Assembly (NCBI GenBank): GCA_002731275.1 | Contig: PCBK01000033.1 | Location: 24,752-88,751, forward strand | DNA from: Deltaproteobacteria bacterium | Lineage (GTDB): Bacteria; Myxococcota_C; UBA6777 | DNA: 64,000 nt | Direction of reading: 5' to 3' | Shown here: positions 9,430-64,000 of the stretch, piece after piece | How positions within the stretch are numbered: position 1 is the stretch's first letter | Layout of the letters: each line of letters begins with the position of its first letter | Notes under the pieces: generated by a model | What the model was told of the DNA's origin: nothing | What the model saw: the letters and a program-made list of their open reading frames with translations, nothing else | Databases searched by the model: none | Program-made: the position numbers and the translations under genes

Positions 9430-10707
9430 TCAAGACGCGACGCACTTTTTCACGCCAGAAGCATCTTTGGTACATTTTGCACCGTCACCACAGGGTTTAT
9501 CTCCCTCTTCATCCACCTCACCATCACAGTCATCGTCGAGATCGTTGCACTTCTCTTGGATGGGAGGGCTTCCTTTGCAGTCGCCCCACTTCGCATTTTC
9601 GCAAGTACGGACGGCACCATCTTTACAGATCCCTTTGGCTGTCGATTCGCTTGAGCAACCTTTGATGATGGGGTTGTCATTGCCGTTTTGGTTGTCAATT
9701 TTCCCATCACAATCATCATCGATGCCGTTACACTCTTCGACACTTTTGGGGAGATCGGCGTCACAATCCTTCCACTTCCCTTCTTTGCAGTACTCGGTAC
9801 CTTTGAAGCAGACGTTGAGACACTGACGTGTGAGCTTTTCGGTGCCACCTTTGACGTTGTCGATCTCGCCATCACAGTCGTTGTCGAGACCATCACAGAC
9901 GTCTTCGCTGGGCTTGGAAGCGACACACTCGCCCCACTCTGTACCGCCACCACCGGGCTTGGCGTTACATGAACGAAGTCCTGCGCAACCATTGCTGGCC
10001 TTGCACTTTTCAGTTTGACCGGGTTTACATGCACATCCTTCGTTGGTTTTTCCGTCGCAGTTGTCGTCTTCTTGGTTGTCACAACGCTCAGGAACGGGGA
10101 GCACCTGACCATTACACTGACTCCAATCGGCTTTCCCATTGGCGTCATTCTCGCAGACCTGCTCACCACCAACACAACGCCCGACACCTTTGGTCTCTGC
10201 GGGGGCTGTGTAACAAGGACGCTTTTGACCGAGTGTACAGACGGTCACGTTGCACTGGTCATCCACTTTACCGTTGCAGTCGTCATCTTCGTTGTTGCAG
10301 ATCTCAGAAGACGGCTTCACTTCATCGACACACTCGCCCCATTTTCCATCGTCATTACAGGTTTTTGTTCCTGTTTTGCAGACACCTGTGCCTGCTGTTC
10401 CATCGGGTCCAGTGTAACAATCATCTGTTTCGCCGGGATTACACTCTGTTTGGACCTCAGGTGTTCCAGAGTCAGGAATCACAGCACCACCACAGATGCT
10501 GTCAATGCACTTTTGCCCACCACACTCAATATCGTTCTTGCAGGTGAGCTGGCAGACTTTGTGTAGACAGGTGTATCCTGACGCAGTATCACAGTCCGAG
10601 CGGATTTTGCAGGGCTTGAGCTCTGAGGAGCAGCCCCATGTGCTGAAAATGGCCACCAAAGATGTGATGAATAAAAATAACGTTATGTTCTTGAATGTAC
10701 TCAACAT
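9430..10707 (-). CDS. Cys-rich lipoprotein with five DCDG-type metal-binding repeats
   Basis: A 425-residue lipoprotein-like protein. The start was moved 25 codons in, to ATG 10707, because GGAGG precedes it and it yields a clean signal peptide ending in FSTWGC. Two short Cys-rich modules follow (KIRSDCDT and CKNDIECGG). The rest is built from five repeats of the MopE-like putative metal-binding motif: EICNNEDDDCNGKVDD, ERCDNQEDDNCDGKTN, DVCDGLDNDCDGEID, EECNGIDDDCDGKID and EKCNDLDDDCDGEVD. They alternate with CY-rich linkers of the 'RPCYTAP' kind. Such repeats are common in Myxococcota surface proteins and are thought to bind calcium or another divalent ion. Spare cysteines suggest disulfides, fitting an outer-surface location. 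The function is unknown. Confidence 0.88.
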   Translation of the reverse strand: MLSTFKNITLFLFITSLVAIFSTWGCSSELKPCKIRSDCDTASGYTCLHKVCQLTCKNDIECGGQKCIDSICGGAVIPDSGTPEVQTECNPGETDDCYTGPDGTAGTGVCKTGTKTCNDDGKWGECVDEVKPSSEICNNEDDDCNGKVDDQCNVTVCTLGQKRPCYTAPAETKGVGRCVGGEQVCENDANGKADWSQCNGQVLPVPERCDNQEDDNCDGKTNEGCACKPGQTEKCKASNGCAGLRSCNAKPGGGGTEWGECVASKPSEDVCDGLDNDCDGEIDNVKGGTEKLTRQCLNVCFKGTEYCKEGKWKDCDADLPKSVEECNGIDDDCDGKIDNQNGNDNPIIKGCSSESTAKGICKDGAVRTCENAKWGDCKGSPPIQEKCNDLDDDCDGEVDEEGDKPCGDGAKCTKDASGVKKCVAS

Positions 10708-10815
10708 ACAACCTCCAAAAATACCTTTGTTCTCAATATATTTACTACTTTCATCAAGAAAAAACAAGCACCTGTGTCGCAAAATTCGCGCCCCACAGGT
10801 AGGTACAAGAACACA

Positions 10816-43764: not shown

Positions 43765-43931
43765 AGCCTGTCTTTTTCCCGGAGCAGCCTGAGACGAAAA
43801 AAGAACACGTCAAGCTCAAACTTTCCTCAACGCTTATCGTCTGCTATATTGAATGAAGGAAAGTATCATTTTATTTTTGAGATGCGATGAGAAACCTGTC
43901 ATCAAAACGCATCGATAGGAGCTTGACAATT

Positions 43932-46814
43932 ATGTATCGACCACCCTCCTGGTTTACCAAGGTCACGTATCTCACCCTTCTCTTTGCTGGTTTCCTCGCT
44001 TGGACCGCGTGTGGAAGACAGCTCGCAAAAGAAGGCGACGCATGTACATACAAAACGGATTGTGAAGGGAATCTCGACTGCATCGAATCACAATGCCGAT
44101 ACAACGGGATTGAGGGGTTTCCCTGCACACTCAGTACGGAGTGTGGTAAGGGACTCAACTGCATCAGCGGTCGCTGCTCCTCTGGACCACTCACATGTAA
44201 AGAACAAGCTGATTGCCCCGCAGAACAACGCTGTAGCAACGGCTCCTGCGTCTCACCAGGACAAGAAGGTGCTCCCTGTGAAGACTCCGCAGCGTGCGCA
44301 AGTGAGCTCGTCTGCGCACGCGCCGGTTCTTGCCAACAAAAAGGCGCCAAAGGCACAGCCGGAGAAAAAGAGACTTGTGCAACAGACGATGACTGCCAAA
44401 AGGGTCTCGGATGCAACGACAAGTTAAAAGCCTGTATGAAAGATGGTACTGAGAACATGCCCTGCCTGACAGGGTTTAAATGTGAGGGCGAGCTCGTCTG
44501 TAACAGAGATGAAGTGTGTGTCAAAGATGGTGAGCCCGGAACAGGTGGTCCGAACAGCGCCTGCCAAAAAGCAGCCGAGTGTCGCAAAGGTTACACTTGT
44601 GGCTCACAAGGCAAATGTGCTCCACAAGGTGTTGGCGTCGAAGGCGATCAATGTGCCGGTAATGAAAATTGTCGTGAAGGGCTCGTGTGTGGGACAGTCA
44701 AAGGTCTCAGTCTCGGAAAATGCACGAAAGACGGAGAGACAGGAACAAAGCAAACAGGCGAAGAATGTGCCGGACCACTCGAATGTGGATTTGGTATGAT
44801 CTGTGGTTTGTTTGGTAAGTGCCAAATCCCACAGACCTTTGCCGGTGTCACCTGTGAAGACCCAGGTGTGACCCCCGGTCCTTTCAGGATTTTCTTCGAA
44901 GTCCCCCGCAAAGATAAAGCCGTAAAAGAGTTTTATCGCCTGCCCTTCCCAAACAACATCCGCATCAAAAATGGCAAGGTCGATTTGACAGGGCACCCCA
45001 ACCCCGCCGGAGAAGCACGTGACGATCTGATCGGGTCATACCTGAAGGCCATCGAGGCTGAGCTTGACGCCTTCGGAAATAACCAAGCCATCTATTTCCG
45101 CTTTAGCCAATCACTCGACTTCAGCACACTTGAGCTCAATGGCGACAAGCCTGCGATCGTCTTTGTCAACCTCGATACAGGTCAACGTCTCGGGATTTCC
45201 GTCACTTACAACGCAGGAAAGGGAGCCTACATCTGCTACAACTCGCTGAGCATCAAGACCTTCTCAGGACTCCCCCTTGAACACGGCGCCAATTACGCCG
45301 TGATCATCACCAACATCCTGAAAAATAAGGTCGGCGACCCTGTTCAGGCCGATGACGACTTCAAAGCGATGATCGCAGAGAACGCACCACAAGATGAGGA
45401 TCTCAAGACCGCATATCCAAAATATCAGGGACTGCGGGATTATCTCGCCAAAAACAAGACAGATGACAAATGGCCCAAAGCCGCTGACATCGTTGGGGCG
45501 ACAGTCTTTACGACACAAAATCCAGACAAACACATCGAGCAATTCAGGAACGTCGCGCAAGGACAACCTGCCCCGACACTCAAATCGTTGACACTGTGTG
45601 ATGGAAAGAACACATCTCCTTGTGCAACAGACGGAGATGATAGCCGCAAGTGTGGTGCTCCAAACGACAAGTTCTACGAGTTTCACGCGAAAGTCACGCT
45701 GCCCATTTTCCAAAAAGGTGACGCTCCCTACGAGACAACAGGTGGTGGGATCGACTATGCGAGTGATGGGACTCCACAAGTTGTGCGCAAGGAAGACGTC
45801 TGTGTCTCGTTGACAATCCCCAAAGGAACAGCACCCGTAGACGGGTGGCCGATCATGTTGTACTCACATGGTACAGGAGGCAACTACCGCGGACACGTGG
45901 TAAATCAGACAGCTTTGCGTGCGAGCAACATAGAACTCCCTGATGGGAAAAAGGTCGGATTTGCGACCATCGGTTTTGATCAGGTCCTTCACGGTCCGAG
46001 AAAGAAAGACTCCAAGACACACCCCAACTTTTTGTTCTTCAACTTTAAGAACCCCATCGCGGCAAAAAACAACACGATACAAGGTGCCGCCGATCACTTC
46101 ACGATGGTCCGCCTGATCAAGAGTCTCGTGATCGCAAAAGAGCAATCCCCCACACAAGCGGAGATCAAAATGGACGGTAAGCACATCGTCTTCTTTGGTC
46201 ACTCACAAGGTGGCGTCGTCGGCCCGGTATTCCTTCCTTTTGAGCCCGACATCAAGACCGTCATCCTCAGTGGTGCAGGTGGAAACCTCGTGCAATCTCT
46301 GCTCAACAAAACAGAGCCAGTAAACGTCAAAGATGGCGTGAAGCTCGCTGTCGGACAACCAGGTTCAACAGGACTGGGTAACCGCCACCCCATCCTCAAT
46401 CTCTTGCAGATGTACTTTGAACGCTCAGACGCGATCAACTATGGACACATGATCACACAAACCCCCAACAAGGACATCACACCAAAACACGCTCTGTTGA
46501 CATACGGTATCGACGACACCTTCACCCCCAACAAAACGACTGACCTGCTCGCGCTCTCTATGGGTGTGACGATGGCACGTCCTGTGCTCAAGTCGATCAG
46601 CGGTCTATCGAGTAACGCGGTTGAGCCTCCCATCCAAGGCAATGTGACAGTTGAGACCGTCAAGTACACGTCTGCCCTTGCGCAGTACAAGCCGACAGAG
46701 GGCTCCGATGGCCACTTCGTGATCTTCCAAAACACAGATGCACAACGCCAGTGGACGCGCTTCTTGGGGACATACCTGACCGATCCAGACAACATCCCCA
46801 CGCTGCTCAAATAA
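43932..46814 (+). CDS. Cys-rich lipoprotein with alpha/beta-hydrolase lipase domain
   Basis: About 960 residues. The start at ATG 43932 follows AGGAG (ten bases) and gives a clean signal peptide with lipobox WTAC; the longer frame from 43887 would bury it. Residues 30-310 hold about ten short Cys-rich modules of Dickkopf-like spacing (CTYKTDCEGNLDC, CTLSTECGKGLNC, CAGNENCREGLVC). The remainder resembles the virulence-factor lipase family (Pla-1/cef): an Ig-like N-terminal part (RLPFPNNIRI) and a hydrolase with oxyanion HGTGGNYRG, nucleophile elbow GHSQGG, acid in YGIDDTF and His in SDGHFVIF. A cell-surface esterase or lipase is likely. The Cys-rich modules may bind partners. A weak terminator follows at 46861. 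Confidence 0.88.
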   Translation: MYRPPSWFTKVTYLTLLFAGFLAWTACGRQLAKEGDACTYKTDCEGNLDCIESQCRYNGIEGFPCTLSTECGKGLNCISGRCSSGPLTCKEQADCPAEQRCSNGSCVSPGQEGAPCEDSAACASELVCARAGSCQQKGAKGTAGEKETCATDDDCQKGLGCNDKLKACMKDGTENMPCLTGFKCEGELVCNRDEVCVKDGEPGTGGPNSACQKAAECRKGYTCGSQGKCAPQGVGVEGDQCAGNENCREGLVCGTVKGLSLGKCTKDGETGTKQTGEECAGPLECGFGMICGLFGKCQIPQTFAGVTCEDPGVTPGPFRIFFEVPRKDKAVKEFYRLPFPNNIRIKNGKVDLTGHPNPAGEARDDLIGSYLKAIEAELDAFGNNQAIYFRFSQSLDFSTLELNGDKPAIVFVNLDTGQRLGISVTYNAGKGAYICYNSLSIKTFSGLPLEHGANYAVIITNILKNKVGDPVQADDDFKAMIAENAPQDEDLKTAYPKYQGLRDYLAKNKTDDKWPKAADIVGATVFTTQNPDKHIEQFRNVAQGQPAPTLKSLTLCDGKNTSPCATDGDDSRKCGAPNDKFYEFHAKVTLPIFQKGDAPYETTGGGIDYASDGTPQVVRKEDVCVSLTIPKGTAPVDGWPIMLYSHGTGGNYRGHVVNQTALRASNIELPDGKKVGFATIGFDQVLHGPRKKDSKTHPNFLFFNFKNPIAAKNNTIQGAADHFTMVRLIKSLVIAKEQSPTQAEIKMDGKHIVFFGHSQGGVVGPVFLPFEPDIKTVILSGAGGNLVQSLLNKTEPVNVKDGVKLAVGQPGSTGLGNRHPILNLLQMYFERSDAINYGHMITQTPNKDITPKHALLTYGIDDTFTPNKTTDLLALSMGVTMARPVLKSISGLSSNAVEPPIQGNVTVETVKYTSALAQYKPTEGSDGHFVIFQNTDAQRQWTRFLGTYLTDPDNIPTLLK

Positions 46815-52788: not shown

Positions 52789-52866
52789 GCAACGAAGTAA
52801 TCTTCGTTGTTCCCCGAGCCTACATCACGTGATGGGGCGCAGTTACTATACTTGAGGAGAATGTTC

Positions 52867-53160
52867 ATGAGCTACATCATTGCTGAACCGTGCGTGAGCG
52901 TTTGTGATACAGCATGTGTTGATGTCTGTCCTGTTGACTGTATTCACGGACCTATCGATAAAGAAGGACGCGGAGAAGAAGTCAAAGGCATGTCCGATGA
53001 GGACAAAAACGGTAAACAACTTTATATCGATCCAGACGAGTGCATCGATTGTGGAGCATGTGAGCCTGAGTGCCCAGTCCAAGCGATCTTTGAAGAGAGC
53101 GAAGTTCCCTCCGAATGGAAAGACTTCGTCAAGAAAAACTACGACTTCTTCGGTAGATAA
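52867..53160 (+). CDS. Ferredoxin, FdxA-like (first of a tandem pair)
   Basis: A 97-residue electron carrier. The N-terminal cluster motif is [19 protein letters not shown], the second [12 protein letters not shown], with an insert of acidic residues between ([19 protein letters not shown]). This resembles the 7Fe/8Fe FdxA class. The protein has an extra run of cysteines in its first motif, so one cluster may be 3Fe-4S or 4Fe-4S. ATG 52867 is preceded by GAGGAG with seven bases, better than the ATG six bases earlier. It is followed after 26 bases by a paralogue with about 65% similar residues. Both are upstream of the transhydrogenase genes (gap 130 bases), so joint use with NAD(P)H metabolism is possible. 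Confidence 0.92.
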
Positions 53161-53186
53161 GGCCTATCCCCAACCAGGATCCTTCC

Positions 53187-53477
53187 ATGACCTATATCAT
53201 CGCAGATCCATGTGTGGGTACTTGTGATACGGCCTGCCTCGACGTTTGTCCGGTAGATTGTATTCACGGCCCCCTATACACAGACCGAGCCGGTGCAGAG
53301 CTCCGGGACATCAAGCAACGTGAAGGGCACCAACTCTACATCGACCCAGACGAATGTATCGACTGTGGCGCGTGTGAGCCTGAGTGCCCTGTTGACGCGA
53401 TCTTTGAAGAGAGTGACGTCCCTGAAAAGTGGAAACATTTCATAGAAAAAAATGCTGCTTTCTTTCAAAAGGATTGA
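53187..53477 (+). CDS. Ferredoxin, FdxA-like (second of a tandem pair)
   Basis: A 96-residue paralogue of the preceding gene. Motifs are [19 protein letters not shown] and [12 protein letters not shown], with a shorter inter-cluster insert ([20 protein letters not shown]) and the shared [12 protein letters not shown] near the end. AGGAT lies six bases before the ATG. The pair probably arose by tandem duplication, and differences are concentrated in the insert and the last 15 residues, the surfaces that would define partners. A separate promoter was not found in the 26-base gap, so both ferredoxins are expected from one transcript. Confidence 0.92.
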
Positions 53478-54854: not shown

Positions 54855-54916
54855 ACAATCACACCACTTTGTCCCTGCTCCCTCGCACACAAAGTGACGT
54901 ACTTTTGGAGTTATCC

Positions 54917-55486
54917 ATGCAAGACATGACACCCAAGATAACAACACTCTTTCTCGGAGTGATCGGGCTCTTCTCGGTGCTTTTCATGACACCGACATTG
55001 CACACAGCCCACGCTGACACTGCAAAGAGCCGCCCTGCAACCACGACAACAAAGACACAAGCCCCTCCAACACGCGCGAAGACCACAAAAGCCGCGAAGA
55101 CCACAAAAGCCGCGAAGACCACAAAAGCCGCGAAGACTACAAAAGCCGCGAAGACTACAAAAGCCGCGAAGACCACAAAAGCCAAAGGCAAGAGCAATGA
55201 AAGTCAAATGCCTTCATTTCTCTTTGGTTTGTATGTCTTTTTGCTCGCGGTCTTTGTCGGCTTTGAGTTGATTACCAAGGTCCCCCCTACACTGCACACA
55301 CCGCTGATGTCGGGTGCAAACGCGATTTCTGGGATCACAATCGTCGGTGCGCTTTACTGCGCACGTTCAAGTCAATTTACAGCTGCGAAGATCCTCGGTC
55401 TCTTTGCGGTCATCTGCGCCATGATCAACGTCGTCGGGGGCTTCCTCGTCACAGATCGCATGTTGCAGATGTTCAAAAAACGATAA
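54917..55486 (+). CDS. pntAB: NAD(P) transhydrogenase, alpha-2 subunit with signal peptide and KTTKAA repeat
   Basis: A 189-residue version of a subunit that is normally about 100 residues. The C-terminal 95 residues are the expected membrane part (LFGLYVFLLAVFVGFELI, PPTLHTPLMSGANAISGITIVGAL, three helices). In front is a signal peptide-like segment (ITTLFLGVIGLFSVLFM, cleavage near AHA) and then a Lys/Thr/Ala tandem repeat (about residues 54-92). In three-subunit transhydrogenases the alpha-2 N-terminus is expected outside the cytoplasm, so the extension should sit in the periplasm. ATG 54917 has TTGGAG six bases upstream, and no start exists between the repeat and the first normal helix that has a ribosome site. 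The repeat may bind the wall or outer membrane; this is inference. Confidence 0.9.
   Translation: MQDMTPKITTLFLGVIGLFSVLFMTPTLHTAHADTAKSRPATTTTKTQAPPTRAKTTKAAKTTKAAKTTKAAKTTKAAKTTKAAKTTKAKGKSNESQMPSFLFGLYVFLLAVFVGFELITKVPPTLHTPLMSGANAISGITIVGALYCARSSQFTAAKILGLFAVICAMINVVGGFLVTDRMLQMFKKR
55076..55183 (+). repeat. Six tandem 18-base units encoding KTTKAA
   Basis: Six consecutive copies of GCGAAGACCACAAAAGCC or a close variant (copies four and five have ACT for ACC), in frame within the transhydrogenase alpha-2 gene. The near identity implies recent expansion, and copy number may vary between strains. Confidence 0.95.
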
Positions 55487-55501: not shown

Positions 55502-56938
55502 ATGACTTGGATACATTTGTCTTATATGTTGGCTTCGGTCATCTTTATTTTGGGGATCAAACGTCTCTCCTCTGTTAAGACCGCACGCCAAGGGAATATC
55601 ATGGCCTCCGTCGCCATGCTCATCGCCATCGCGACGACCCTGATCGAGCTGCGACTCTTTCAAACGCCCTTTGATTTTGGGCTGATCATCATCGGTATCA
55701 TCGTCGGTACAGCGATCGGAGCCTGGATGGCGCTCAAAGTCGAAATGACTGAAATGCCCCAAATGGTCGCGATGTTTAACGGACTTGGTGGTGGCGCTTC
55801 TTTGCTCGTCGCCCTCTCCTACTTTTGGGAGAAACTGCTAGAATCCCCAGCAAACGCCAACCTCGCGCCCTACCAGGTGCTCGGGACAGACGGCGCCATC
55901 TCGATGCTCTTGTCCATCTTGATCGGTGGCGTCACGCTGACAGGTTCGGTGATCGCATACGGAAAACTGCAAGGGGTCAAATGGGTTCCCGACAAACCCG
56001 TGCTGTTCCCCGGTCGCCACGCGCTCAACGCCGCCCTCTTTTTCGGTTCCTTTGGGCTCGGTTACCTGACCTTCTTCGGTAGCACATCAAGCGCGTCGAT
56101 GATCATCTTCCTGCTCTTGATGTCCATCGTCTGCTTGATCCTCGGTGTGTTGCTCGTCGTCTCGATCGGTGGTGCCGATATGCCCGTCGTCATCTCTCTG
56201 CTCAACTCCTACTCAGGACTCGCAGCCGCGATGACAGGTTTTATCATCAGCAACAACGTCTTGATCATCAGTGGTTCGCTCGTCGGAGCCTCAGGTATCA
56301 TCCTGACCAACATTATGTGCAAAGCGATGAACCGTTCACTCACCAACGTCCTCTTCGGTGGCTTTGGTGGAGAAGACTCTGGCTCTGCTGACAACCGCGA
56401 ATACTCCTCGATCAAAAGCACAGGTGCAGAAGAGGTCGCGATGGTTCTCGACGCTTGCACCTCTGTGATCGTTGTCCCTGGATACGGAATGGCCGTTGCC
56501 CAAGCACAACACGCAGTCAGAGAGCTCGGCGACTTGCTCCAAAAACGTGGATGCTCCGTCAAATACGCAATCCACCCCGTCGCAGGTAGGATGCCTGGAC
56601 ACATGAACGTCCTCCTCGCAGAGGCGAGCATCCCCTACGAACAACTCGTTGAAATGGACGATATCAACAGCGAATTCAAGAACACGGATATGGCGATCAT
56701 TTTGGGCGCCAACGATGTCGTCAACCCCGACGCGCTCGACAAAAAGGACAGCCCGATTTACGGAATGCCCATCCTCCACGTGCACGAAGCCAAGTCCGTT
56801 GTCGTGATCAAACGAAGCCTCTCACCAGGATTCGCCAAGATCCGTAACCCACTGTTCGAAGCGCCTAACGCGATGATGTTCTTTAGTGATGGCCGCAAAG
56901 CCATAGAAGACCTCGTACGGGAAGTCAAAGACCTCTAA
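55502..56938 (+). CDS. pntB: NAD(P) transhydrogenase, beta subunit
   Basis: A 478-residue membrane subunit with about nine helices in the first 270 residues (domain II, the proton channel) and the NADP(H)-binding domain III at the end. Recognisable motifs: FNGLGGGAS, the SLLNSYSGLAAAMTGF helix, VIVVPGYGMAVAQAQHAV (the NADP fingerprint), HPVAGRMPGHMNVLLAEA, GANDVVNP and VVVIKRSLSPGFA. AAGGG is nine bases before the ATG and the gap to the alpha-2 gene is only 15 bases. Together with pntAA and pntAB this is a complete and apparently functional enzyme. Confidence 0.96.
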   Translation: MTWIHLSYMLASVIFILGIKRLSSVKTARQGNIMASVAMLIAIATTLIELRLFQTPFDFGLIIIGIIVGTAIGAWMALKVEMTEMPQMVAMFNGLGGGASLLVALSYFWEKLLESPANANLAPYQVLGTDGAISMLLSILIGGVTLTGSVIAYGKLQGVKWVPDKPVLFPGRHALNAALFFGSFGLGYLTFFGSTSSASMIIFLLLMSIVCLILGVLLVVSIGGADMPVVISLLNSYSGLAAAMTGFIISNNVLIISGSLVGASGIILTNIMCKAMNRSLTNVLFGGFGGEDSGSADNREYSSIKSTGAEEVAMVLDACTSVIVVPGYGMAVAQAQHAVRELGDLLQKRGCSVKYAIHPVAGRMPGHMNVLLAEASIPYEQLVEMDDINSEFKNTDMAIILGANDVVNPDALDKKDSPIYGMPILHVHEAKSVVVIKRSLSPGFAKIRNPLFEAPNAMMFFSDGRKAIEDLVREVKDL

Positions 56939-56971
56939 TCCCCTCCCCTCACAGTTTCCCCCCAAAGCAGC

Positions 56972-58798
56972 TTACTGACAATATCCCATCGAGTTGCGGT
57001 TCTTGTCCTGGAGTGGAAAATTCACACATCCAAGTGTCCCACAATCTCGCCTTGGAAAATCCTGATCACAGAGCTTGTAACACCTACCTTGGCTTCCATT
57101 TCCAATGGGCACACAACCATACCCATCCCGACAACCTCTGGTGGATGAACAACTATACGGAGTACACGACGTTCCACGCCCTCCCCCGCCAATGGGCAAA
57201 CATACAAATGAGGCCTTGCCCCAAGGCACACATTGCTGTCCTTTCTCGCAATTGAGTGTAAACGGGCTACATGGATCACTCGGAAAACACACAGGCTTGC
57301 CACTCTTTTGGGGCAAGCAAAAGTAGCCATTTGGACAGGCCGAGGTGTCACAAGGTTGACGGCAGATCCCAATCTTCACCTTCGCACACCACGCGGTCCC
57401 GCCGCGATAACAGACCAATGGCGACTCACATGAAGATTCATGTTCACAGGGGTCACCGAGCTTGTGAGGGATGATGCAACGATGTCCCAGACATTGATAA
57501 GGCGGGTCATTGGCAGGACACTCGCTCGCTGTCTTGCAACCGAGGATAAACAGACGTTTGACGATCGTTTGGTTTTGGTTGATATCTGTCGCGACGACGA
57601 CCAACTTCCTCTTGCCAGCACCGTAAAGAGACACACCTGCTGGGATACTCGTCTCAAACAGTGAGCCCTGATGCTTCTCTCCTGTCGTGTGCAAGATGTT
57701 GTCGATCCGTTGTCCGTTCTCGTTTTCGAGATAGAAGTCCACTCTCCCCACGCCTGCATCATCCCACACCTTCGCCTGAAACTTCACCTCACCAGAGTAG
57801 GCAGCGTTGGTTTGTGGCAACACGATTTGTACTTCGGGTGGTTTCGCGTCCACGACGACTTCGATAGATGGTGGATCTTTGGTGATATTTCCAGCCTTGT
57901 CAATTGCAGAAGCTGTCAGTGTCACACGCCCATTGTGCGTATTACCCGTCAAGTCCACAGGGATCTGGAAGGGTGGCTTGTCGACCTGCCCAACGATTTT
58001 TTCGCCGACTTTGACCTCCACCTTTTGGATACCAAACTCATCCTCAATCTCCAGGTTCGCGGAGAACTTTACAGGGACCGTTGAACCTTCTTGGGAGGGG
58101 TACACAAACCGCAGCCGAGGTCCAAGGCGATCGATGTGCACACTGCACACAGTCGTCGCTCCACGAAAGATCCCCTTGGCAGCGACGGCTGAGATGTAAA
58201 TTTCCTCGCCATGTTTGTACTTTGAGAGATCCACTTTGAGAACATAAGGCCCCTCTTCAAGACGCGACAGCAACGTCCCTTGCACAAAGAAATCGATTGG
58301 CGTAGAAGGAAGCAGCGTGGAAAAATCGAGCCATTCGATCTTGAGCTCAACTTCATCCCTCGCGACGAGAGGCTGGTTCAGACAATTGGGGAAGCGCAAT
58401 CGCGCCGTCTGATTGACAATCCACAGCGGCTCCACCGTACGGAGCAATACACGACCGTCGTGTAGAAGGACCTGTACTTCGAGACGGTAGACACCATCCT
58501 TGTCCCGGGCTGTGTCCCAATCCAGATAAAAAGGCTCTCCCTCTTTTCGCCCAAGGAGTCGTGGCCTGATCAATGGATCATTGTCAGGAAGAGCGACAAC
58601 CTGCGCCAATATCTCTTTGACGAGTTTGGGTGAAGAGACCTTGATCTCCACACCGACCACACCACGCAAAAACTGCTTCTCAACAGGTTCACGGACCGTA
58701 ACATCAATGTCGTCGATAGGACTCCCACAAGAAGACACAACGACGCCAACCAAACACAGAAGGCAAAAAGAGACTGTCAACCAACGTACAGAGCTCAT
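56972..58798 (-). CDS. Ig-like and Cys-rich lipoprotein, third gene of a coupled triad
   Basis: A 608-residue lipoprotein with signal peptide ending in VVSSC. Residues 30-430 contain Ig-like/cadherin-like beta domains recognisable by AVDKAGN-like ends: ASAIDKAGNITKDP and VVATDINQN. The last 170 residues hold at least three Cys-rich modules (CPANDPPYQCLGHRC, CQ/CPNGYFCLPQKSGK, CRDGYGCVPIGNG). The ATG at 58798 overlaps the stop of the middle gene as ATGA. It has the same layout as the first gene of the triad (60663-62576), and their Cys-rich ends align (GxCVPIGN...G, C..P.GYFC), so they are paralogues. Both are likely attached to the outer membrane. Function is unknown. Confidence 0.85.
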   Translation of the reverse strand: MSSVRWLTVSFCLLCLVGVVVSSCGSPIDDIDVTVREPVEKQFLRGVVGVEIKVSSPKLVKEILAQVVALPDNDPLIRPRLLGRKEGEPFYLDWDTARDKDGVYRLEVQVLLHDGRVLLRTVEPLWIVNQTARLRFPNCLNQPLVARDEVELKIEWLDFSTLLPSTPIDFFVQGTLLSRLEEGPYVLKVDLSKYKHGEEIYISAVAAKGIFRGATTVCSVHIDRLGPRLRFVYPSQEGSTVPVKFSANLEIEDEFGIQKVEVKVGEKIVGQVDKPPFQIPVDLTGNTHNGRVTLTASAIDKAGNITKDPPSIEVVVDAKPPEVQIVLPQTNAAYSGEVKFQAKVWDDAGVGRVDFYLENENGQRIDNILHTTGEKHQGSLFETSIPAGVSLYGAGKRKLVVVATDINQNQTIVKRLFILGCKTASECPANDPPYQCLGHRCIIPHKLGDPCEHESSCESPLVCYRGGTAWCAKVKIGICRQPCDTSACPNGYFCLPQKSGKPVCFPSDPCSPFTLNCEKGQQCVPWGKASFVCLPIGGGGRGTSCTPYSCSSTRGCRDGYGCVPIGNGSQGRCYKLCDQDFPRRDCGTLGCVNFPLQDKNRNSMGYCQ

Positions 58799-60666
58799 GG
58801 CGTCACCGTAAATTGCCAGAGAGAACCATCTCCGGGACAAGCCACCCACACGATGCGTTGACCTTTCGCGTCGACATTCCCGATCGCCATGCCAAGAGGC
58901 CCCAACCCCACCTTGATCACACGCGCGAGTTTTTGCTTGTCCATATCAAACATCGACACTTCACTACCATCCCGATGACCGACAAACGCGACCCCATCAG
59001 CCGCGATAACATGTCCTGGTTTTCGCACCAGACCTTTTTCATCTTTGACCTGCAGAGGAGGCTGCGTCAAACCAATCGAGAAATTCAAGATCGCGACCTG
59101 TTTTTGCACAGGGTCTGCAGCGAGCGTCCTTTGGGTCTTGTCATCGACCGCAAAATACGCGTACGTCCCAGGCAGTTTGACGAACTGCGTGCTGTCCTCT
59201 TTCATATTGAGTGTATCGATAAAATGAACGCCTTTATCGGAGATAAGCAGTCCATATGTGCCCTGTTGATGAAGGCTCGCGCTGATGTGTGTCCAATCGG
59301 AAAACGCTGCACAGCTCGACCTTCCGCCAGAGGTCGGTGTCAGACAAGCCCCGAAGACATCCTTTCCAAGTAGATCCTTACCAGCATACCGCGTCAACAA
59401 ACGCCCCCCAATATCACCGATTCCTGCGGCATGAGAGGTTTGGGAAAAGAGCGTCAACCCAGTCGCGGTCGCTTTATCGACATCCAGCTTATAGAGCTTG
59501 CTCTCCGTCACGACGTAAAACGTACCACTTACAAACCGCAGCCCGTAGGGTGCTTCAGGGATGGAGATCTCTGTTTTGCGCTTGGGAGATTGTGTCGAGA
59601 TATCAAAGAGCACGACCTTTTTGTCGTCGCGTAAACTCACAGCCAAATACTTTGTTCCAACAGCAAGCTCGTGGGGAAATCCACCCAAATCAGTGACCTT
59701 GCTTGCGACAAAGGGGCACGTATTGTCGATCTGGCCATCACAATCATTGTCGATCGCGTCTCCACAGACTTCCTGGACAGGAGCTTGGTTCGATTTACAG
59801 ACGAGCGCCTTTTTCGCGACATCGCAGGCTCTCTTGCCGTCTTTACAAATCCCCCCTAAACCAGTCAGGCACACCTCCCCCAACCCTTTGACGTCGTCGA
59901 CGATACCATTGCAGTCATCGTCGATACCATTACAGCTCTCTGTTTGAGGCTGTCCATCTCCAACACATTCAAGCCACTTGCCGTCCTGACAGGCCTGGTT
60001 GCCTTCAACACACGCGCCTTTTCCCCGAAGATCCTGGGTGCCTGTAAAGCACGGGCGGACGAGAGGCTTGTCGTCGTCTCCTTCATCGATCGCACCGTCG
60101 CAGTCGCTGTCAATACTATCGCACTGTTCAGCGCTCGGAAGAATCTGCCCTTGACAGTCCCCCCAACTCCCGGTGCTATTACATGTTTGCGTTCCTTTTT
60201 TACATTGTGTACCAGGGAAAGAGAGCGTTTTCTCATTCCCATCGTAACACTCGCGGGTCGATCCAGGACGGCACTCGATGCTAATACACTCTGGTTCATC
60301 GGTCCGGCCGTCACAGTTGTCATCCTTTTTGTTTCCACAAACCTCCTGCACCGCAGGATTGATCAAGCCATCACCGTCATCACAATCGAGGGGCACAGGG
60401 AACCCATCTTTGTCATCATCTTTGAGCGCTTCGGAGCATTGATGTGCTTGGCAAAGTTGGCCTTTTGGACATTCGATACTGTACCGACATCCTTCCGCAC
60501 AGGTCCTGTCATTGCGGCAAAAATACCCCCAAGGACAATCATCATCCTCTTCACAGGCCTGTCCATACGCTCCACAAGCCAGCAGACCCAATCCGCACAA
60601 AGAGAGACCAAACAACATCATCACATACAAAATACGCATTCTCATACATCGAATCCTTACCATCAT
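58795..60666 (-). CDS. DCDG-repeat and beta-propeller lipoprotein, middle gene of a coupled triad
   Basis: A 623-residue lipoprotein with signal peptide ending in GLLAC. Cys-rich modules (CEEDDDCPWGYFC, CRYSIECPKGQLC) come first, then MopE-like metal-binding repeats (LDCDDGDGLINPAVQEVCGNKKDDNC..., QCDSIDSDCDGAID, SCNGIDDDCNGIVDD, VCGDAIDNDCDGQIDNTC). The second half is beta-rich with repeats of about 45 residues (KYLAVSLRDDKKVVLFDIS, TFYVVTESKLYKLDVDKA, GVAFVGHRDGSEVSMFDMDKQKLARVIKVG), a likely seven-bladed propeller. The ATG at 60666 overlaps the preceding stop as ATGA, which favours it over the ATG seven codons later. Overlaps on both sides suggest a fixed ratio with its two neighbours. Confidence 0.87.
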   Translation of the reverse strand: MMVRIRCMRMRILYVMMLFGLSLCGLGLLACGAYGQACEEDDDCPWGYFCRNDRTCAEGCRYSIECPKGQLCQAHQCSEALKDDDKDGFPVPLDCDDGDGLINPAVQEVCGNKKDDNCDGRTDEPECISIECRPGSTRECYDGNEKTLSFPGTQCKKGTQTCNSTGSWGDCQGQILPSAEQCDSIDSDCDGAIDEGDDDKPLVRPCFTGTQDLRGKGACVEGNQACQDGKWLECVGDGQPQTESCNGIDDDCNGIVDDVKGLGEVCLTGLGGICKDGKRACDVAKKALVCKSNQAPVQEVCGDAIDNDCDGQIDNTCPFVASKVTDLGGFPHELAVGTKYLAVSLRDDKKVVLFDISTQSPKRKTEISIPEAPYGLRFVSGTFYVVTESKLYKLDVDKATATGLTLFSQTSHAAGIGDIGGRLLTRYAGKDLLGKDVFGACLTPTSGGRSSCAAFSDWTHISASLHQQGTYGLLISDKGVHFIDTLNMKEDSTQFVKLPGTYAYFAVDDKTQRTLAADPVQKQVAILNFSIGLTQPPLQVKDEKGLVRKPGHVIAADGVAFVGHRDGSEVSMFDMDKQKLARVIKVGLGPLGMAIGNVDAKGQRIVWVACPGDGSLWQFTVTP

Positions 60667-62576
60667 GGGCTACACACCCCATACTGCAGTTTTCCGCCGC
60701 CAAAGCTCCACTGCAAAGGAGAGCATCGACTTCCTGTGGGACATCGTGGATTGTCGAGAAGACAGGCTTTCATACAAGAAGTCGTCCCTAGATTGAGCAA
60801 GTACACACACCACGAGCCACGTCGGCAATTCCCAGACGCAGAGCAATTTTCCCCACAGGCTTTACCATTGGCGACATTCCCAATAGGGACACACATGCCG
60901 GCATCATCGTCAGCAGGTACACAGTGCTTACCTGCTCCGCAGTTTTCCTTCACGAGTGGCACACATGGATCACCAGGCATACATACTTTCAGGGATTTGG
61001 AGCAATAATAGGTGGGAGGACAGGCGTCTGAGGAGACAAACTTGTTTCCGGGATTACATCGTTGACGACAAAATGAACCCTTTGCAGAGGAGCTACAAAC
61101 AGGCAGAGAGCCAGGAGTACAAGCGAGCCCAATGGCGCAGGGAGTGTTGGTATTGCAAGGTTCATTGAGTCCAGCAGGTGTCAGACATTGGTAGCGATGA
61201 CAAACTTTCCCGACAGGACAATCCGTCGAGTCACCACATCCGACCAAAAATAACCTCGTGCGCTCTGCTACGTTCCCGGACTTATCGGTTGCGCGGACGA
61301 CAAATGAATGCTTCCCATACCCAAACTTCTTGCGCACATCGGACACATCCACAGAGGGTGTAAACTCGGACTGATTGACGACTTTTTCGAGCAGCGCGAT
61401 CTTCTTTCCGCCAGCCTTCACAAATAGCTCGACTTTTTCGAGCAGATGGTTGTCCGTGATCCTTGCCGTGAAAGATGAGCTCGTCCACAAGAGCTCACTT
61501 TGTCCAGGAGAGCGGATAAAAATCTCTGGTACAACAGGATCTACCCTAACACGAAGCTGTGCGGCTGGCTCGCTGATGTTTCCAGCGAGGTCAACGGCAC
61601 GTGCGGTCAAAACAATAGGTTGCTCTGTTTTGTAGGCATCGGAGAGCGAAACTTCGATCGGAAACAGGGGTGAATCTCTCCCGACGAGAGGGGCATACCC
61701 GACTTGACACTCTCCCTGTTCTTCGCTCTGTGAGAGATTGGTGCTTTGTGTCTCGACCTTCTGACAGGCCACCCCATCCACCCACAGACGGACCTCCCGC
61801 ACACCAAAACGATCGTACGCGTCAAACTTCACCGTAAACTTTTTTCCGAGCAAGACATCGCTCTGTGCGGGTTCGCGGAATTGGACAGTTGGAGCGGTGT
61901 TATCGACGATCGGAAAGCAACGAATACGGCGGCGGTTTCCTTTGTAATCTTCCCCTTCTGCCGCGACACTCAGGCGTTCGCCATCTGCATATGTGAGCGT
62001 CGAGACCAAGAACCGATAGGGAGCTTTGGAGTCGAGTGTTTCCGGACCTTTGATGCTATTGACAAAGAGCTTGGGAGCACCACTGAGGAGGGTCTCCTGT
62101 TCACTGACAGAGACGACGAGTGAGTGGATCCCCCGGATAAATTGGCCATCGTGACAATTCACAAACCACATCCGAGGGGGTTCATTGCTCACCTGTATCA
62201 ACCGCAGGGTGGAGAGGTGCTCTCCTCCACCTTCGTCGTATGCGATGGCCTGTACACGATAAAATCCGTCGGGGACTTGAAAGCTGTTCCACTCGAAGGT
62301 GTAGGGTTTTTTGTGCAGCTCAGCGATGCGACGGGTCTCCGCGACTTTCCCAGGGAGGGCTTGCGGTGTGATCTGTACGACGACAAAGCGCGTCGCGTCG
62401 TCAGGAGACACGGAGACTTCAAAGGGAACTTTCCCCGAAACGGGTCCAGGTGTAGGTTTGAGGAGTTTGACGTCGAGTGTGACCCCCTTCAGCGCGTCGA
62501 CCCCACAATCACACGCCCCAACAGTCAAAAACAACAAGGCAAGAGAAAACCACAAATACCATAAACGTCTGTTCAT
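60663..62576 (-). CDS. Ig-like and Cys-rich lipoprotein, first gene of a coupled triad
   Basis: A 637-residue lipoprotein; signal peptide with lipobox TVGAC just before a short CDCG sequence. Ig-like beta domains run from about 35 to 430 (SVSPDDATRFVVVQITPQ, VSVSEQETLLSGAPKLFVN, LTARAVDLAGNISEP, VRATDKSGNVAE). The Cys-rich tail begins near CGDSTDCPVGKVCHRYQC and includes CPPTYYCSKSLKVC, HCVPADDDAGMCVPIGN and CPTGSRCSP. ATG 62576 follows AGGAT with eight bases. It heads a three-gene unit in which both junctions are four-base overlaps. Upstream are several AAAAAGTC repeats (62617-62690) that could be operator sites. Confidence 0.86.
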   Translation of the reverse strand: MNRRLWYLWFSLALLFLTVGACDCGVDALKGVTLDVKLLKPTPGPVSGKVPFEVSVSPDDATRFVVVQITPQALPGKVAETRRIAELHKKPYTFEWNSFQVPDGFYRVQAIAYDEGGGEHLSTLRLIQVSNEPPRMWFVNCHDGQFIRGIHSLVVSVSEQETLLSGAPKLFVNSIKGPETLDSKAPYRFLVSTLTYADGERLSVAAEGEDYKGNRRRIRCFPIVDNTAPTVQFREPAQSDVLLGKKFTVKFDAYDRFGVREVRLWVDGVACQKVETQSTNLSQSEEQGECQVGYAPLVGRDSPLFPIEVSLSDAYKTEQPIVLTARAVDLAGNISEPAAQLRVRVDPVVPEIFIRSPGQSELLWTSSSFTARITDNHLLEKVELFVKAGGKKIALLEKVVNQSEFTPSVDVSDVRKKFGYGKHSFVVRATDKSGNVAERTRLFLVGCGDSTDCPVGKVCHRYQCLTPAGLNEPCNTNTPCAIGLACTPGSLPVCSSSAKGSFCRQRCNPGNKFVSSDACPPTYYCSKSLKVCMPGDPCVPLVKENCGAGKHCVPADDDAGMCVPIGNVANGKACGENCSASGNCRRGSWCVYLLNLGTTSCMKACLLDNPRCPTGSRCSPLQWSFGGGKLQYGVCSP

Positions 62577-62616
62577 AGATGCCAATCCTGCATGATGAAA
62601 GACTCAAAAGAGAGAT

Positions 62617-62690
62617 ACTTTTTGCTCATCAGGCATGATAACAAAAAGTCACTTTCTCATAAAGGTTGCGGCACCATGAACAAAAAGTCA
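62617..62690. repeat. Direct and inverted CAAAAAGT repeats upstream of the lipoprotein triad
   Basis: CAAAAAGTCA occurs at 62642-62651 and again at 62681-62690, 39 bases apart; ACTTTTTG at 62617-62624 is the inverse of the first with a 17-base loop. The block sits between gcvH (stop at 62707) and the triad (start 62576), where the triad's promoter must lie. It could be an operator or, less likely, a gcvH terminator hairpin; no clear -35/-10 pair was recognised. Confidence 0.4.
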
Positions 62691-62706
62691 AACCCGACGA
62701 ATGGGA

Positions 62707-63084
62707 TTAACTCTCGACCTGTGTTTTGTATGTGTCGGCAGTCAGAAGACCTTCGAATTGGGAAGCATCAGAGGCTTCGATATTGACCAACCAGCCTTCA
62801 CCGTAGGGATCGCTGTTGACGGTCTCAGGTGAGGCATCGAGGGAGGTGTTGACGGAGACGATTTTTCCGGACATGGGCGCGTAGATGTCGGAGACAGTCT
62901 TGACGGATTCAATCGTCGCGATGACCTGTCCAGCTTCGACTTCTTCGCCGGGCTCAGCAGTGTATTCGATAAAAACGACGTCACCAAGTTGATCTTGCGC
63001 AAAATCTGTGATGCCGATGGTTCCAGAATCAACTTTGATCCATTCGTGTTCTTTTGTGTACTTGAGTTCTGCTGGAATATTCAT
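62707..63084 (-). CDS. gcvH: Glycine cleavage system H protein
   Basis: A 125-residue lipoyl carrier of the glycine cleavage complex, shuttling the aminomethyl group between the P, T and L proteins. The lipoylation site is K62 in ESVKTVSD, and other signatures are KYTKEHEWIKV, GITDFAQDQLGD and GWLVNIEASD. AGGAGG is close before the ATG (four to five bases). It lies 34 bases after gcvT on the same strand, as in the usual gcvT-gcvH order; gcvP would be expected further on but the next gene downstream is the lipoprotein triad, so it must be elsewhere. Confidence 0.97.
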   Translation of the reverse strand: MNIPAELKYTKEHEWIKVDSGTIGITDFAQDQLGDVVFIEYTAEPGEEVEAGQVIATIESVKTVSDIYAPMSGKIVSVNTSLDASPETVNSDPYGEGWLVNIEASDASQFEGLLTADTYKTQVES

Positions 63085-63118
63085 AAGACCTCCTGAGATT
63101 CAGATGTGTCCAGTATTG

Positions 63119-64000
63119 TTAAGGACGATAGAAAGGCGTTTTGACCACGCGGACAGATAATTTTTTGTTTCGGATCTCCACCTTCAGCTCACTGCCGGGT
63201 TTGGCAAAGTGAGGTTTGGCGGGGACATATCCAATGCCGATGGACTTGCCGAGACTTGGTGCGAACCCACCGGAGGTCAGCTCGCCGATTTCCTCGGAAC
63301 CATCAGCGCTAAAGAGTTTGTAGTGACTACGAGGTACACCTCTGTCGATCATCTCGATTCCAACGAGGCGACGAGGTGGTTTGGATTCCATTTGCTCGAC
63401 AAGCACGTCACGTCCATTGAAGTCACCTTTTTTGGGCTTCACGGTCCAGCTCAAACCTGCCTCGATGGGTGTTGTCGTCTCGTCGATATCGTTTCCATAG
63501 AGAGGATAACGCATCTCCATACGCAGGGTATCACGGGCACCCAGGCCACATGCCATGATTTGATCTTGTGCACCTTCCTCGAAGAGCGCGTTCCAAAAAT
63601 CAACAGCGCGATCAGCAGGCACAAAGACCTCAAATCCATCTTCACCAGTGTATCCTGTGCACGCCAACATACATCCGTCAATCCCTGAGAGGGTCGCTTC
63701 GACGAGGCGGTTTTTTGGGACATCGGTCAGATCTTGGCCAGCCATACGTCCAAGGACACCGCGGGCCTTTGGCCCTTGTACAGCGAGCAAAGCCCACTTG
63801 TCGCCAGCATCAGGATGGGTCAATGTGACATCTTCACCTTCGCGGATGTTGTCGCAAAACCACTTGTAGTCTTTCTCACGATTGGCACCGTTGATCACGA
63901 TCAAGAAGTCATTATCACCACGACGATAGAAGATCCCATCGTCCACGATGCCACCCTCAGGGTAACAGATAGGTGAATAACAGGCTTCTCCTTCAGCGAG
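63119..64000 (-). CDS. gcvT: Aminomethyltransferase (glycine cleavage T protein), 5' end cut by the window
   Basis: The C-terminal 293 residues of GcvT, which transfers the methylene group from H protein to tetrahydrofolate. The reading frame runs off the window edge with no stop, and the missing N-terminal part should be 70-90 residues. Motifs include EGGIVDDGIFYRRG, NREKDYKWFCDNI, VQGPKARGVLGRM, CTGYTGEDGFEVFVP, DTLRMEMRYPLYGNDID, GLSWTVKPKKGDFNGRDVL and the final GIGYVP segment. The GTG at 63946 is internal and not the start. It is followed by gcvH after 34 bases; any glycine riboswitch would be outside the window. Confidence 0.95.
   Translation of the reverse strand, partial: LAEGEACYSPICYPEGGIVDDGIFYRRGDNDFLIVINGANREKDYKWFCDNIREGEDVTLTHPDAGDKWALLAVQGPKARGVLGRMAGQDLTDVPKNRLVEATLSGIDGCMLACTGYTGEDGFEVFVPADRAVDFWNALFEEGAQDQIMACGLGARDTLRMEMRYPLYGNDIDETTTPIEAGLSWTVKPKKGDFNGRDVLVEQMESKPPRRLVGIEMIDRGVPRSHYKLFSADGSEEIGELTSGGFAPSLGKSIGIGYVPAKPHFAKPGSELKVEIRNKKLSVRVVKTPFYRP

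Follow-up and report, generated by a model that had tools for sequence, protein, structure and literature searches.

A conserved set of three predicted lipoprotein genes, coding for paralogous Ig-like proteins on either side of a stalk-and-propeller protein, in a Myxococcota-like lineage

Three neighbouring genes for predicted lipoproteins (A, B and C) lie on the minus strand of a 64,000-nucleotide stretch of DNA, hereafter the window, from contig PCBK01000033.1 of a Deltaproteobacteria bacterium (assembly GCA_002731275.1), and they raise the question of whether their products act together as one unit of the cell envelope. In minus-strand order, they are gene A (62576-60663, 637 aa), gene B (60666-58795, 623 aa, or 616 aa if translation starts at 60645) and gene C (58798-56972, 608 aa); the open reading frames, strand and coordinates given for them in the initial annotation are correct. 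The genome of the window (G000) is a 10.75-Mb assembly of 200 contigs with 5.5% contamination. Three pairs of its contigs (C71/C200, C50/C197 and C163/C194) gave identical match scores, which suggests redundant or strain-duplicated contigs in the MAG.

The three genes occur in the same order and orientation in all five genomes of the family (G000-G004), which represent three genera, so that the arrangement, which the initial annotation proposed to seek in other genomes, is not unique to the genome of the window. These five are all of the genomes sampled in the family, itself the only family sampled of its phylum-level group, and a query of the whole phylum returned the same five; in G001, contig breaks fall inside A and C, and C carries on in a second contig. 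C is present in a single copy per genome, and B is always located between A and C. Compared with the window, the orthologues of the other four genomes are 47-50% (A), 40-42% (B) and 40-47% (C) identical, a divergence that has left ample time for rearrangement. The neighbourhood of the block, on the other hand, is not kept. A is preceded by gcvT-gcvH in G000, G002 and G004, and by a carboxyltransferase gene and a 237-aa ORF in G003. C is followed by a convergent pntB-like gene in G000, by an Exo_endo_phos gene in G003, by cysteine synthase-like and radA-like genes (identified by eye) in G002 and G004, and, if its two contigs adjoin, by a kinase/regulator pair in G001. This persistence of the block in differing upstream and downstream contexts bears out the view of the three genes as one unit, and provides the main evidence for it.

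Searches outside the family found nothing that matches A or C over the full length, either in 193 genomes from the phylum of G032 (inferred to be Myxococcota), where the A3 profile matched stretches of Ig domains only, or in 381 other bacterial genomes, where the A5 profile gave only partial Ig matches; in both searches, scoring was confined to the best few candidates per genome. No relatives were found among viral contigs.

The junctions between the genes tell a different story from their order. In the window, both are ATGA overlaps, as the initial annotation reported: the stop codon of A overlaps the first possible start codon of B (60663-60666, minus strand), and the stop codon of B overlaps the start codon of C (58795-58798, minus strand). 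The further claim, that the genes are thereby locked in translational coupling, is not sustained by the relatives, in which spacing was assessed from gene starts picked by eye. The A/B overlap is found in three of the five genomes (G000, G002 and G004), whereas the two genes lie 74 nt apart in G003 and 114 nt apart in G001. The B/C overlap is found in G000 only, the other four genomes having gaps of 11, 11, 30 and 99 nt. In the window itself the start of B is ambiguous, as judged from its sequence: in-frame ATG codons are located at 60666, 60663, 60645 and 60639, of which that at 60645 has TAAGGA eight bases upstream and, if used, would abolish the A/B overlap, and that at 60666 is preceded by a stronger GGGGTG at a different spacing. 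In an approximate gene list of the window, some 25 pairs of neighbours share a strand, and three of these have overlaps of the -4 type, A/B and B/C included. Overlaps of this type rank with the most frequent spacings between prokaryotic genes, and gaps of about 20 nt nearly abolish coupling by termination-reinitiation (PMC10666635). The ATGA overlaps are thus a local feature, and lend weak support to a putative fixed stoichiometry of A, B and C.

All three proteins had been described as carrying lipoboxes, and in the window a lipobox-like Cys indeed follows a hydrophobic stretch at each N-terminus: VGAC in A (Cys22), LLAC in B (Cys31) and VSSC in C (Cys24). They are termed lipoproteins on the pattern of a signal peptide plus lipobox only, rather than by a dedicated predictor. 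A lipobox-like Cys is also present in all of the orthologues that have an N-terminus, in weaker form in those of C. In the window, the residue at position +2 is Asp in A and Gly in B and C. In E. coli, an Asp at this position is a signal for retention in the inner membrane, and the three proteins may therefore sit in different membranes. The residue varies, however, among A orthologues (Asp in the window, Arg or Gln in two others).

The sequences of A and C align as paralogues along their full length (28% identity, 189 bits, E 2e-56), in agreement with their initial description as paralogous Ig-like, Cys-rich lipoproteins flanking B. Both contain four Ig-like domains (residues ~25-446 in A), followed by a Cys-rich C-terminal region with 26 Cys residues (447-637 in A, 421-608 in C). 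The Pfam family PF17957 (Big_7) scores above its gathering cut-off of 24.1 bits in both (41.9 bits in A and 53.5 bits in C); A also matches Big_13, and DUF7107 remains below its cutoff. The AlphaFold model of A, based on an 11-sequence alignment, has a mean pLDDT of 80, with the Ig-like domains at high confidence and the Cys-rich tail at moderate confidence only. Its fold matches are modular rods of the Ig/FN3 type, including the adhesins 4p99, 6xi3 and SiiE. Like SiiE and the ice-binding adhesin 4p99, A and C possess tandem Ig-like (Big_7-type) domains; the former, however, are giant secreted adhesins, whereas A and C are lipoproteins of ~65 kDa that carry a Cys-rich tail and in which no end domain of the adhesin kind was found. 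The two proteins also have in common a weak match to the domain of leptospiral OmpL47-type proteins (NCBIfam; 25.8 bits, 1e-5 in A and 16.7 bits, 7e-3 in C), from which they differ in that the match stays under the curated cut-off of 40.

Within A and C, the Cys-rich tails rank with the best conserved regions, at 54-60% identity (46-53% without the Cys residues) among the trio orthologues that have the full tail. Additional members of this protein type are encoded elsewhere in the family. G003 contains a solo A paralogue (L040:9965-11914, 34% identity), located directly after a Sel1-repeat gene and without B or C. Further ~590-aa lipoproteins of the Ig-plus-Cys type, more distantly related to A and C, are found in G000, G002 and G004; L022:775-2544, for example, codes for a shorter, 589-aa relative with Ig-like and Cys-rich parts, and others lie in G004 and G000. 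A 975-aa predicted lipoprotein with 43 Cys residues and no Pfam match is encoded in the window itself (43887-46814).

The initial annotation of B as a DCDG-repeat/propeller lipoprotein is upheld by both Pfam and AlphaFold. Following the lipobox Cys31, the protein consists of a Cys module, four MopE/DCDG repeats (residues 81-318) and a seven-blade propeller of the YncE/YVTN type (residues about 319-623). PF11617 (MopE) matches four stretches with a score of 73.1 bits, against a gathering cut-off of 27. The AlphaFold model, based on five sequences, has a mean pLDDT of 70, with the propeller blocks mostly at 75-92 and the MopE stalk poorly modelled. The best fold match of the propeller is E. coli YncE, which aligns over 279 residues at an rmsd of 2.1 (Z 31.7) and at only ~14% identity, and the best sequence match an archaeal S-layer YVTN propeller (E 4e-18); the PQQ-associated propeller TIGR03866 scores 12.4 bits, far under its curated cut-off of 287. 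The C-terminal half of B is therefore like YncE, the archaeal S-layer protein 1l0q and the leptospiral antigen Lp49 in propeller fold or sequence. Unlike such YVTN/YncE-type proteins, B has a predicted lipid anchor, a Cys module, four MopE repeats and two Ig-rod lipoproteins as neighbours. With MopE of Methylococcus capsulatus, B shares the DCDG-type repeats and a predicted exported or surface character; MopE (2vov) is a weak PDB match over ~40 residues (~100-140 of the profile), but the rest of MopE is unmatched and the C-terminus of B is a propeller.

The two halves of B differ in their distribution. Proteins resembling its residues ~30-320 occur in 56 of the 193 genomes from the phylum of G032, and these Cys-module/MopE-stalk proteins resemble the stalk of B, although none among the matches listed spans the whole propeller. 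The propeller alone gave no match in the same 193 genomes (best few candidates per genome scored), and is present in one copy in each of the five family genomes. B thus appears to be a fusion, specific to this lineage, of a propeller with a stalk that is itself common. PF11617 repeats occur at no fewer than 150 places in dozens of ORFs of G000 and in none of 14 control genomes, and have the appearance of a generic module for stalks. One MopE motif lies in a 450-aa ORF of the window (9430-10782) with 49 Cys residues, which is 32-37% similar to the stalk-bearing B orthologues. The halves also differ in their rate of change: between genera, compared with the window, the stalk is 50-55% identical and the faster-diverging propeller 30-35%. 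Together with the conservation of the A and C tails, this fits a constrained stalk and tips and a freer propeller, though it is not proof of contact sites.

The DNA around the set contains a palindrome, ACTTTTTG-N17-CAAAAAGT, between gcvH and A (62617-62649, no strand assigned), possibly an operator or a terminator of the upstream genes. It has one exact copy in G000, plus two places with one mismatch, and 6 of 200 shuffled sequences fold as well. Among the upstream gaps read in relatives, none showed its arms, and a second ACTTTTTGTT is located ~40 nt upstream of it. Terminator- and promoter-like sites are no commoner than in shuffled sequences, and no Rfam family was found at 56500-64000 of the window. 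On the other side of the set, an ORF with a repetitive KTTKAAKTTKAA linker (54869-55486) lies between two transhydrogenase-subunit-like genes, and two similar ferredoxin-like genes are arranged in tandem (52807-53477).

The constant association of A, B and C in the Myxococcota-like lineage indicates that they probably form one cell-envelope unit, and a joint function is well supported. The explanation we prefer, tentatively and at just short of an even chance, is that they represent a co-transcribed operon of lipid-anchored exported proteins which act as such a unit in a binding role. A and C would be sister rods derived from a duplication that predates the diversification of the family, in which four Ig-like domains are topped by a disulphide-packed tip, and B a rigid stalk bearing the seven-blade propeller. 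This stalk, made up of the Cys module and the acidic DxDxDG/DCDG repeats, probably binds Ca2+ in addition to being disulphide-bonded. Most likely, the three would assemble next to one another in a single membrane, probably in the outer leaflet of the outer membrane, an outer-surface location being plausible. In a putative A-B-C complex, the stalk of B would touch A and C along their Ig rods or at their Cys-rich tips, and the faster-changing propeller would be turned to a variable partner: a ligand, a polymer, or the surface of prey or a neighbour. The whole assembly may then serve as a device for binding or adhesion, although Ig folds and propellers, being generic, point to no particular ligand. 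We consider it rather unlikely that the set is an undescribed hetero-oligomeric surface machine, universal in and private to the phylum-level Myxococcota-like lineage and dedicated to contact with cells or surfaces.

Several observations count against a single unit: the coupling is not conserved, A has an Asp at +2, unlike B and C in the window, and G003 possesses a solo A paralogue. The same observations, along with the unconserved overlaps and short spacing at the junctions, are what would be expected of envelope lipoproteins that are co-regulated without a physical complex, acting in parallel or in different membranes as part of one regulon (responding, for example, to starvation or surface contact). 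This is a serious contender, which we nevertheless place well below an even chance, since the exact order is kept across contexts with the single-copy B in the middle, a frequent mark of selection for joint assembly. That the genes are instead neighbours by chance or by operon inertia following gcvT-gcvH, which precedes A in three of the five genomes, has a slim chance: G003 retains the set behind a different upstream region, and the orthologues have diverged for long enough to allow rearrangement.

Two other proposals concern the task of B. Its propeller might bind a small ligand in the manner of the Bacteroides cobalamin-binding lipoprotein BT2095, with A and C as scaffold for the capture of a nutrient or cofactor, and a Foldseek search with B indeed lists BT2095 with cyanocobalamin (8okv) at rank 39 (E 2.9e-9). 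This structure is, however, one of over a thousand propeller matches, and in the loci read, no gene beside the trio was recognisable as coding for a TonB-dependent receptor or a transporter, which leaves the proposal a small chance. Handling of copper through the repeats is hinted at by the full name of PF11617, Cu-binding_MopE, with its four matches in B, and by the weak match to MopE itself. Yet the copper site of MopE consists of two histidines and a kynurenine derived from Trp130 rather than the repeat motif (PMC3423442), and the repeats are widespread in G000; we give metal handling a very slim chance and reject copper binding as the main role of B.

A-B-C is a real and conserved gene set, probably a lineage-specific lipoprotein operon, and is undescribed in the sources searched: no paper was found in the literature on MopE-type or cysteine-rich lipoproteins of Myxococcota or of novel Myxococcota MAGs. 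Its domains are familiar; the searchable sources appear to contain no description of their fixed combination and gene order. The uncultured, large-genome Myxococcota-like lineages have few known envelope systems. The trio, present in every sampled genome of its lineage and not found outside it, provides a lineage marker, and offers a defined target for studying how these bacteria handle surfaces or prey.
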